From positions 2,480,001-2,544,000 of the forward strand of contig NZ_CP100454.1 in the NCBI RefSeq assembly GCF_024228315.1: a stretch of DNA of 64,000 nt, given 5' to 3'. Below, piece after piece: positions 12,478 to 14,320 of this stretch. The DNA comes from Halomarina pelagica. Lineage in GTDB: Archaea; Halobacteriota; Halobacteria; Halobacteriales; Haloarculaceae. Both the position numbers and the translations under genes were made by a program. The notes below the pieces were generated by a model, which saw only the letters and a list, made by a program, of their open reading frames with translations, was not told where the DNA came from and ran no database searches. Numbering within the stretch: the stretch's first letter is position 1; every line of letters starts with the position of its first letter.

Positions 12478-13404
12478 ATGTTGGGAAGTGACACGAGACG
12501 GACGCTCGTATCCGTGCTGGTGATTCTCGTCGCAGTAGTCGTCGTATTCGGCTCTATGGGCGCGCTGGCCGGCCAGAACTCCGGCGGTCAGGGCACCGAT
12601 AGCGGCACGGGCGACGGAGCGAACGCGAACAACGGAAACGGAAACGGAGGCAACGGGAACGGAAACGGAAACGATGACGGCGGCGATCGCGTCGACGTGG
12701 AGGAGACGGACGACGGCGTCGACATCGAGGGCGACGGTCGGCAGATCGATCACGACGACGGCGGTGACGACGTCGACGTCGAGAGCGCCGACGATGACCT
12801 CGATTACGACACCTCCGACGACGGCGACGAGGTCGACGTCGAGAGCGACGGTCAGGAGATCGAGCAGGACGACGGTGACGCCGAGGTCGAGAACGACGAC
12901 CTCGACTTCGAGACCGACGACGACGGTGACGAGGTGGACGTCGAGAGCGACGATCTCGAGATCGAGCACGACGACCGTAGCGAGGTCGAAACCGCGGACG
13001 TGGACTACGACCGCGACGACGACGGCGACCTCGACTTCGAGAGCACCAGGGGTCCCGTCGACCTCGAATTCGATGACGACGACGTCGACGTCGAAGCCAA
13101 CGGCCTCGACATCGAGGAGGACGACGACGACCTCGAAGTCGACGACGACGACGTGGACTTCGAAAGTGACGGCGACGGTGACGTCGAGTTCGAGGACGAC
13201 GACAACGACATCGAGCAGGACGACGACGAACTGGAGGTCGACAACGACGACCTCGACTTCGAGAACGACGGCGACGGCGATCTCGAGTTCGACGACGGCG
13301 ACAACGACATCGAACAGGACGACGACGATCTCGACGTCGAGGGCGACGACGGCTTCGACATCGAGAGCGACGGCGACGACGTGGAGGTCGGCGGCGACAA
13401 CTAA
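12478..13404 (+). CDS. Secreted extremely acidic repeat protein, first of a tandem pair
   Basis: The 308-residue protein has a hydrophobic signal segment (residues 10-31, ending ALAGQ), an Asn/Gly-rich linker (34-66) and a repeat domain (71-304) made almost only of Asp, Glu, Gly, Asn and spaced hydrophobic residues. Short hydrophobic-acid-hydrophobic strands (VDV, LDY, VDF, LEF, LDV) recur about every 9 residues. From about 219 a 33-residue higher-order unit repeats (LEV at 219, LEV at 252, LDV at 285). There are no cysteines. The layout resembles a beta-roll or beta-solenoid with acidic, possibly Ca2+- or salt-binding turns, but it does not carry the exact RTX nonapeptide. The ATG at 12478 is chosen over an upstream in-frame GTG because it gives a normal signal sequence. 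Function unknown. Confidence 0.8.
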   Translation: MLGSDTRRTLVSVLVILVAVVVVFGSMGALAGQNSGGQGTDSGTGDGANANNGNGNGGNGNGNGNDDGGDRVDVEETDDGVDIEGDGRQIDHDDGGDDVDVESADDDLDYDTSDDGDEVDVESDGQEIEQDDGDAEVENDDLDFETDDDGDEVDVESDDLEIEHDDRSEVETADVDYDRDDDGDLDFESTRGPVDLEFDDDDVDVEANGLDIEEDDDDLEVDDDDVDFESDGDGDVEFEDDDNDIEQDDDELEVDNDDLDFENDGDGDLEFDDGDNDIEQDDDDLDVEGDDGFDIESDGDDVEVGGDN

Positions 13405-13555
13405 CCCGCCCCGCCTCACGTCGAACGTCGAACATCGAACGTCGAACACCGAACGGACGCGACGAGCGCGCCGATTTTTGGACCACTGCGGACGCGGAGT
13501 TACGCACGACCCGCAGTCGGGTTCGGAATCCGAGCGAGTAGGTTCCGCTCCACCG

Positions 13556-13612
13556 AACCCGTTAGGTGGGTAACTCTCGCCGGTCGCCGTCCAATCTCGC
13601 TACTGTCCCGCA
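13556..13612 (+). promoter_or_regulatory. Shared upstream motif of the second acidic repeat gene
   Basis: AACCCGTTAGGT (13556-13567) matches the last motif upstream of the first acidic gene (12401-12412) in all but one base. CGCTACT followed by TCCC also recurs nearby (12414 onward and 13597 onward). Two paralogous genes keeping the same upstream block supports common regulation. Confidence 0.4.
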
Positions 13613-13642
13613 TCAACAGTAGGGCTACGGAGACATTCGAAC

Positions 13643-14320
13643 ATGAGACAATCAGTGAAAGCGGTAGTCGTCGTACTCGTTACGCTGACCGTGGTGGTCA
13701 GCTTCGCCGGCGCGATCAGCGCGCAGGACGATTCGAGCGACGGCGCGGATGGTACGAACGGTGGGAACGGCGGCGGCTCCGCGGACGGAGGCGATAGCGA
13801 CGACTTCGACTTCGAGAGCACCGACGACGGCCTCGACATCGAGGGGCTCGGTTTCGAGATCAACCACGACGGCAACGACGTAGAGGTCGAGAACGCGGAC
13901 GACGACCTCGACTACGAGACCCGCGATCAGGGCGACGAGGTCGACGTCGAGAGCCGTGATAGCGAGATCGAGCAGGACAGCGACAGGACTGAAGTCGAGA
14001 ACGACGACCTCGACTACGACCGCGACGGCGACGGGAACCTCGACTTCGAGAGCGCGGACGGACCCATCGACCTCGAGTTCGACCGCGGCGACGCCGACGG
14101 CGACGTCGACATCGAGACCGACAGCGACGAGATCGAGGAGCGCGGCGGCGAACTCGAGGTGGAAGGCGACGACCTCGACTTCGAGAACGACGGCGACGGC
14201 GACGTCGAGTTCGACGACAGCGACACCGACGTCGAGCAGGACGACGACCGCCTCGAGGTGGAAGGCGACGACTTCGACCTCGAGAGCGACGGCGAGCGCG
14301 CCGACGTCGAACAGCGGTAG
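13643..14320 (+). CDS. Secreted extremely acidic repeat protein, second of the tandem pair
   Basis: This 225-residue paralogue of the preceding protein has a signal peptide (residues 6-27, ending AISAQ), a short Gly/Ser/Asp linker and the same repeat domain from about 53. The repeat order matches: both carry the block DLDxE-S-x(2)-GPxDLEFD (here near 132-147) followed by the 33-residue unit (LEV at 171 and 204, LDF at 178, FDL at 211). Residue composition is again dominated by Asp and Glu, with no Cys. The ATG at 13643 follows its own motif-bearing upstream region, so it is probably transcribed separately, although read-through is possible. Tandem duplication of one ancestor is the simplest origin. 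Confidence 0.8.
   Translation: MRQSVKAVVVVLVTLTVVVSFAGAISAQDDSSDGADGTNGGNGGGSADGGDSDDFDFESTDDGLDIEGLGFEINHDGNDVEVENADDDLDYETRDQGDEVDVESRDSEIEQDSDRTEVENDDLDYDRDGDGNLDFESADGPIDLEFDRGDADGDVDIETDSDEIEERGGELEVEGDDLDFENDGDGDVEFDDSDTDVEQDDDRLEVEGDDFDLESDGERADVEQR

Follow-up and report, generated by a model that had tools for sequence, protein, structure and literature searches.

Introduction

The TCP10 domain of the centriole protein CPAP is a free-standing, single-layer meander of ~20 consecutive antiparallel strands connected by short turns and, as an excerpt of its structural report puts it, is unique to its authors' knowledge among naturally occurring proteins (PMC3776556). Acidic repeats in secreted proteins are on record closer to the organism considered here, since hypha-forming haloarchaea related to Halomarina gained secreted proteins, several of which carry Asp-rich repeats, according to the excerpted text of that study (PMC10067837). 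Here we describe two adjacent genes, P1 and P2, in a 64,000-nucleotide stretch of the Halomarina pelagica genome (RefSeq assembly GCF_024228315.1, contig NZ_CP100454.1, positions 2,480,001 to 2,544,000), hereafter the window. Each encodes a secreted protein with a strongly acidic domain that is composed of two arms of matched length around a central Gly-Pro, and each arm is predicted to be a single-layer antiparallel β-meander. As the best reading overall, and with moderate confidence, we take these proteins for a regulated extracellular two-armed β-sandwich that probably serves as surface or matrix material.

P1 and P2 belong with the acidic secreted β-repeat proteins and, by prediction, with the single-layer meanders, and their architecture is striking. 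The TCP10 (G-box) domain of CPAP/Sas-4 is the best Foldseek match of both models and is a single-layer antiparallel meander, a form that P1 and P2 may also take. It resides, however, in a centriole protein and forms one continuous sheet, no sequence relation to it was found, and the TM-scores are low, whereas the archaeal proteins are secreted and combine two matched arms around Gly-Pro with an acidic face. Further meanders among the structural alignments of P1 and P2 are the OspA single-layer sheet and MORN repeats, both aligned weakly (for OspA, Z reaches at most 7.8 with P1 and 6.3 with P2; for Morn1, at most 6.9 and 4.6) and both unlike P1 and P2 in their residues and their biological setting. 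The Asp-rich repeat proteins of the hypha formers, compared by description only, are likewise secreted, and the excerpted text has their authors proposing calcium binding (PMC10067837).

Two secreted acidic paralogs of an undescribed family

P1 and P2 (Table 1) are paralogs that have the same residue at 106 of 195 aligned positions (E = 3e-40). An earlier note, made from the sequence alone, had described two adjacent paralogs with a signal peptide, a linker, and an acidic repeat domain; the gene coordinates, the identity, and the disordered linker bear this out. The P1 domain (residues 72 to 308) contains 128 acidic and only 6 basic residues (K, R, H) among 237, and the P2 domain contains 79 acidic and 10 basic residues (K, R, H) among 171. 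Relative to the Halomarina halobia orthologs, the ratio of nonsynonymous to synonymous substitution rates (dN/dS) is 0.25 for P1 (305 codons) and 0.28 for P2 (220 codons), and third codon positions account for 60 of the 106 differences in P1 and 29 of the 50 in P2. The antisense −2 frame, which has silent sites in common with the coding frame, gave 0.44 (P1) and 0.385 (P2), and the remaining frames gave values of >1. Judging from these ratios together with the excess of third-position differences, the repeats of both proteins are under selection at the protein level.

Table 1. Features of the P1-P2 locus, numbered from the first nucleotide of the window
Feature	Position	Strand	Basis
CRISPR array, 22 repeats (RF01337), last degenerate; neighbor only	10825..12230	+	
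Double palindromic promoter element 67 bp upstream of P1; two copies of CCTA-N6-TAGG at 24-bp spacing, the second with TCTA as its left half	12374..12411	+	
P1 gene, secreted acidic protein, predicted two-armed β protein, 308 amino acids	12478..13404	+	Open reading frame, dN/dS 0.25, AlphaFold2 model
P1 signal peptide, residues 1-32 (boundary approximate, cleavage judged by eye)	12478..12573	+	Hydrophobic helix 5-25 in model
P1 low-complexity G/N linker, residues 33-71	12574..12690	+	pLDDT <50 for residues 19-69
P1 N-terminal arm (residues 72-191), predicted to form 14 strands	12691..13050	+	AlphaFold2 model, arm-length measurement
P1 central Gly-Pro (192-193), sole Pro of domain, proposed hinge	13051..13056	+	Invariant in alignments A1, A3
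P1 C-terminal arm (residues 194-308), predicted to form 14 strands; 33-residue units at 219, 252, 285	13057..13401	+	
Degenerate element copy upstream of P2 (by eye), with a pair of TAGG half-sites at 24-bp spacing	13539..13566	+	Unmatched at 1 mismatch
P2 gene, 225-amino-acid paralog of P1	13643..14320	+	dN/dS 0.28, AlphaFold2 model
P2 signal peptide, residues 1-27 (boundary approximate, judged by eye)	13643..13723	+	Helix 2-19 in model
P2 N-terminal arm (residues 55-139), predicted to form 10 strands	13805..14059	+	AlphaFold2 model, arm-length measurement
P2 central Gly-Pro (140-141)	14060..14065	+	AlphaFold2 model
P2 C-terminal arm (residues 142-225), predicted to form 10 strands	14066..14317	+	AlphaFold2 model

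The family to which both proteins belong is undescribed, as the earlier note had supposed, as far as the searched libraries and the open-licence PMC literature show; no description was found among the papers listed from the latter. Pfam and NCBIfam returned nothing for P1 and only subthreshold hits for P2. In the PDB, a sequence search yielded only retinol-binding protein hits at E values of 0.43 to 0.6, which are not significant, and the family profile matched no PDB sequence at an E value of 1. A Pfam scan of 15 members at an E value of 0.01 matched ten different families, each in 3 of the 15 at most: DUF2345 in three members; a phage-spike trimerization domain (the best match, E = 6.7e-6), Sarcoglycan, DUF5766, DUF6470, and YhdP in two each; and DUF3540, FecR, DUF2807, and VWD in one each. 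A TCP10 model was not among these ten. We read the scattered matches as generic to β-repeats and rejected them as the identity of the family.

Relatives of P1 and P2 in other haloarchaea, where the earlier note had suggested looking for the pair, occur in H. halobia, Halogeometricum limi, Halegenticoccus tardaugens, and a Haloarculaceae archaeon. The distribution is patchy: a profile search at an E value of 1e-6 recovered the family in 8 of 391 genomes of the class and 5 of 86 genera, 6 of 146 genomes of the window's taxonomic family carry such proteins, and a draw of 392 genomes from the phylum, which sampled the class thinly, matched only in the window's own genome. On this draw, a spread beyond the haloarchaea was rejected. 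Carrier genomes mostly hold several copies, often in tandem. A mobile origin was considered and rejected, as no protein match was found in plasmids or phages and none was confirmed in viral contigs. A set of 40 distinct family proteins was assembled from the fetched loci and inspected with simple sequence patterns. All 40 have an N-terminal hydrophobic segment, 5 have a twin-arginine-like motif, and a later membrane segment, a lipobox, or a PGF anchor was detected in none of the 40.

Matched arms around a central Gly-Pro

The P1 and P2 domains each hold a single Pro, which is part of a Gly-Pro that is invariant in the alignments of 12 and 15 members. By manual count, this dipeptide divides the AlphaFold2 models into 14 plus 14 strands (P1) and 10 plus 10 strands (P2). 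Of the 50 rows that a second structural aligner, used besides Foldseek, listed for each model, 30 for P1 and 31 for P2 have ranges that end or start within a few residues of Gly-Pro (manual count).

Of the 40 proteins, 21 carry exactly one Gly-Pro within the domain and entered the arm measurement. The other 19 were left out: 15 lack the dipeptide, 3 contain it at least twice, and in 1 it lies close to where the domain begins. Arm lengths in the 21 proteins range from 84 to 153 residues on the N-terminal side and from 74 to 151 on the C-terminal side, and they are closely correlated (r = 0.949). The mean difference between the arms is 8.1 residues, compared with 26.9 after shuffling, and 0 of 20,000 shuffles reached 8.1. 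Because the relatives share descent, the test was repeated on 8 clades or types, grouped by our own judgment; the correlation remained high (r = 0.925), and 324 of 40,320 exact permutations were as good (0.8%). A first version with a stricter motif, covering 11 proteins, gave r = 0.908 and p = 0.0024. In the alignment, P1 exceeds both P2 and its own ortholog in genome G005 by one unit of ~33 to 34 residues in each arm. Packing of the arms face to face would demand such paired expansion. Separately, Gly-Pro recurs 69 to 82 residues apart in a subfamily that represents a duplicated form of the domain (L025:5784-6494, L028:7203-7937, and L043:6569-7363).

Predicted fold and strand spacing

Models of P1 and P2 were built with AlphaFold2. 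The mean predicted local distance difference test score (pLDDT) is 76.9 for P1 and 77.5 for P2, with a predicted template modeling score (pTM) of 0.67 for each, and residues with a pLDDT of <50 lie mostly in the signal peptide and linker of both models. Strands are predicted from residue 73 to 305 in P1, where the means of 10-residue blocks are 68 to 95 and 15 of 24 blocks reach at least 90, and from 56 to 224 in P2, where the first block has a mean of 57 and those after it 76 to 93. The predicted strands are 4 to 6 residues long in each domain, and beyond the signal peptide both models are all-β, with no helix elsewhere. Structure prediction, a check put forward in the earlier note, returned confident all-β domains in both proteins, in keeping with the strand-rich domain expected there, and the best Foldseek matches, although weak, are to single-layer antiparallel meanders.

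The best TCP10 matches of the two models are 4bxr (E = 3.1e-4) and 4bxp (E = 3.6e-4). The second structural aligner reached a best Z of 12.0 (root mean square deviation, 8.3) for P1 and 9.3 (root mean square deviation, 5.2) for P2, its top rows being two axonemal chains. Most of its listed rows have Z values of <8, which may reflect only a common arrangement. The rows listed are mostly chains that we take to be antiparallel meanders, namely, TCP10 (best Z, 9.2 for P1 and 7.7 for P2), OspA, MORN, and teneurin; a few phage-spike and other chains are also listed.

Core spacing offers a check that does not depend on AlphaFold2. Where two antiparallel strands are joined by a turn of 2 or 4 residues, same-face residues of adjacent strands are an odd number apart. 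Across the 40 family proteins, successive hydrophobic cores spaced 5 to 13 residues apart are separated by an odd number in 456 cases and by an even number in 134, and the hydrophobic autocorrelation is strongly positive at lags 7 and 9 and negative at lags 6, 8, and 10. The predominantly odd spacing speaks for hairpins whose hydrophobic residues lie on the same face, although other folds are also conceivable.

In P1 and P2 themselves, the core spacings alternate between 7 and 9, with some of 10 to 11, and the autocorrelation at lag 9 stands well above shuffles (z = 6.7 and 5.7, respectively). The per-strand period is ~8.4 residues in P1, and Fourier peaks lie at 8.8 and 8.2 in P2. A strand spacing of ~9 residues, as given in the earlier note, thus holds as a strong lag-9 signal but not as the actual period, which is shorter in P1. 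The 33-residue super-repeat described there starts exactly where it was placed, as cores begin at 219, 252, and 285 in P1 and at 171 and 204 in P2 (lag 33, z = 4.0 and 2.3), but it is confined to the C-terminal arms of these two proteins; across the family set of 40, the signal at lag 33 all but vanishes (0.012), and among long lags those of 16, 18, 25, and 34 are stronger.

Promoter element and Bat-type regulators

A double palindrome precedes P1 and recurs before other family genes. When 12 genomes were searched with one mismatch allowed, 15 strand-wise matches at 9 distinct sites were obtained. Seven of the nine sites lie 67 to 97 bp upstream of a family gene; G000 contributes three of them, G004 two, and G005 and G022 a single site each. 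Of the remaining two, one coincides in part with the 3′ end of a family gene, ahead of a 56-amino-acid open reading frame (ORF), and the other is in G006, where no family member was found. Three Halegenticoccus genes have exact copies 86 to 87 bp upstream, which brings the total to ten family genes in three genera, all with the element 67 to 97 bp upstream. The upstream motif that the earlier note had assigned to both genes of the window is real in P1 and only partial in P2, which keeps two TAGG half-sites.

Other elements were observed around these genes. An ORF of 56 to 64 amino acids lies between two convergent family genes in two loci (L025:6710-6880 and L028:6810-7004; likeness judged by eye), and in G000 it is preceded by a copy of the double promoter element and may belong to the same regulon. 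A second motif, a TCCCAC...GTGGGA inverted repeat common to Halomarina and Halogeometricum limi, was noticed by eye <150 bp upstream of family genes (L025, L026, L028, and L038).

Gene neighborhoods were surveyed at 19 distinct loci, one of which (L033) is cut by a contig end; at least one further match (G022:C89) lies outside this set. In 7 of the 19 loci (L025, L028, L029, L032, L040/L043, L042, and L077) a Bat-type regulator gene is situated directly upstream on the same strand. Six of the regulators were identified by a full Pfam scan (PAS, GAF, BAT, and HTH_10 in L025, L028, L029, L040, L042, and L077), and that of L032 was identified by PF15915. Carrier genomes hold 23 to 43 PF15915 matches each, so that the chance of adjacency is <1% per gene. 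In this adjacency, the seven loci resemble a bop-like, Bat-type regulon; the regulator is absent next to the window pair and at the rest of the loci.

A proposed two-armed sandwich and its alternatives

In the reading that we favor, each domain would consist of two equal-length single-layer antiparallel β-meanders flanking the central Gly-Pro, with hydrophobic residues on one face of the sheet and acids on the opposite face. The arms would most likely close at the Gly-Pro hinge with their hydrophobic faces together, giving a long, narrow, cross-β-like sandwich with a carboxylate coat, and the repeat number would rise in both arms jointly, which would keep them matched. Expression would probably be governed by a dedicated switch, in which the double palindrome of the promoter is probably read by the Bat-type PAS/GAF/HTH_10 regulator whose gene is often adjacent. 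Outside the cell, the protein would probably form a hydrated, cation-condensing surface or matrix material and act in the same setting as the secreted subtilase encoded near 7 of the 19 loci. In Halobacterium, Bat switches on bop in the light and at low oxygen, as stated in an excerpt of the respective study (PMC3184054), which makes an oxygen or light response a fair first guess for this family; halolysins, in turn, are produced in late log phase, according to another excerpt (PMC6085418).

The same subtilases suggest a different role, in which the family protein is a partner of the protease, be it a substrate, an inhibitor, a stabilizer, or a latent precursor that is cleaved. An S8 subtilase gene lies within 5 kb in 7 of the 19 loci (L025, L028, L029, L032, L040/L043, L074, and L077), while the chance is ~1 to 2% per random site (four genomes); by eye, these subtilases have Tat-like N termini, and in six loci the subtilase and the Bat regulator are both present. 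If Halegenticoccus is a separate genus, as we presume, the subtilase link extends to 5 of 6 genera and the Bat link to 4 of 6. A protease-activated secreted precursor is also described in Haloferax: the HapP/halolysin precursor system (HFX_0892) comprises a secreted protein that acts with a secreted subtilase, as excerpted from its report (PMC12893001). That precursor acts through α-helices, however, whereas the models of P1 and P2 are all-β after the signal peptide, the neighboring subtilases are of two architectures (~420 to 440 and 626 to 710 amino acids), and 12 of the 19 loci, the window pair among them, have no subtilase found nearby. A subtilase partner is therefore unlikely in our view.

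Amphipathic meanders could instead stack between molecules or coat hydrophobic surfaces as a functional, amyloid-like fiber or film. The parity of the core spacing implies one hydrophobic and one acidic face, tandem clusters of paralogs suit coassembling subunits, and one of the G000 paralogs is placed among genes that by eye resemble those of glycosyltransferases. The matched arm lengths, however, point to pairing within the chain, and the high negative charge (128 of 237 residues acidic in the P1 domain) opposes stacking without cations, so that we consider such assembly rather improbable.

A still slimmer prospect is that the domain is an intrinsically disordered acidic polymer, a hydration or cation sponge, and that its strands are an artifact of AlphaFold2 on repeats. 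The bias is known: this program yields confident yet false β-solenoids for perfect repeats, including ones with stacked acids, as an excerpt of the relevant study reports (PMC11795689), and Asp plus Glu make up 45% of the 40 family domains. Unlike the published artifact, P1 and P2 have imperfect repeats, and neither was modeled as a solenoid. Regular odd-spaced cores, a conserved Gly-Pro, and matched arms are not expected of a disordered polymer, and the dN/dS values of 0.25 to 0.28 likewise speak against it.

The nonapeptide motif of RTX (repeats-in-toxin) proteins, HemolysinCabind, is a tandem GGxGxDxUx. An RTX-like calcium-binding β-roll, with which the family shares a strong ~9-residue periodicity and Asp-rich turns, is highly improbable, since the 40 family domains contain 0 RTX nonapeptides (0.38 expected from shuffles; a loose form also gave 0) and no excess of DxDxDG loops (16 observed and 15.4 expected), the ten Pfam families from the scan of 15 members (E value of 0.01) include no calcium-repeat model, and the best fold matches are antiparallel, as is the predicted fold, whereas RTX rolls are parallel. 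The earlier note was hence right that the exact RTX motif is missing, but the likeness to a β-roll that it perceived is not supported, as the listed fold matches are mostly antiparallel meanders and the odd spacing fits hairpins.

Several observations weigh against the two-armed sandwich itself. Both models come from a single predictor and were built on the same 15 sequences, the AlphaFold2 bias toward confident false folds in repeats applies to them as a caution, and the TCP10 rows in Foldseek are weak (query TM-score, 0.15 to 0.28; best E value, 3e-4). With 15 of the 40 proteins lacking Gly-Pro and 3 having two or more, the two-arm rule is tested on 21 proteins only, and these share descent. 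A reversed control of the promoter pattern also gave 6 strand-wise matches in the 12 genomes, which means that the count of elements alone is not decisive and that their location is. At one mismatch, the element had no match in 5 of the 12 genomes searched, all of them carriers (G001, G391, G190, G177, and G330). Lastly, neither a Bat regulator nor a subtilase is adjacent to P1 and P2 in the window.

Surroundings of the family genes

The window pair is located between the proS and azlCD genes (names assigned by eye), and the same site is used in G004 and G005. The CRISPR (clustered regularly interspaced short palindromic repeats) array ends ~250 bp upstream of P1, so that the pair does follow the array directly, as the earlier note had stated. 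G004 has a shorter array at the same site, with 9 exact core copies, and G005 has no array there. A simple scan for exact repeats covered 22 fetched stretches, some of which overlap; apart from the window, it found an array only at the corresponding locus of H. halobia. A third Halomarina (L030) has none at the orthologous site. Because it is present in the window and in G004 and missing in G005, the array is, on this comparison of sites, probably incidental to P1 and P2, and a CRISPR link was rejected.

Several other genes near family members deserve mention. In G000, glycosyltransferase-like genes, recognized by eye, flank the third paralog (L026:885-2597 and L026:8137-9321). A Tat-like Asp-rich protein and a 310-amino-acid protein are encoded beside the family clusters of G330 and G177 (L075:9584-10576 and 10833-11765; L076:13963-14976 and 10282-11214), and the L075 copies of both have no Pfam match. 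In G001, a predicted membrane protein with Asp-rich DxDGD repeats and an HTH-like C-terminal tail (by eye) lies near Tat-type family members (L034:11542-13062).

Implications

P1 and P2 probably have a surface or matrix role. Beyond that, and only tentatively, we propose that they may represent a new architecture, in which meander arms of equal strand number are zipped face to face about a Gly-Pro hinge into a carboxylate-coated cross-β ribbon, the arms lengthen together by whole four-strand units, and a double operator with a Bat-type sensor would make the protein an inducible extracellular material in brine. Free-standing single-layer β-meanders are rare in nature, and arms that stay equal while the repeat number changes are a test case for the growth and folding of repeat proteins. 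A domain with >45% acidic residues is likewise a test case for extracellular folding at molar salt. To our knowledge, little has been established about the non-opsin targets of Bat-family regulators, and the consistent place of the promoter element before family genes offers a test of such a regulator on a defined non-opsin target.

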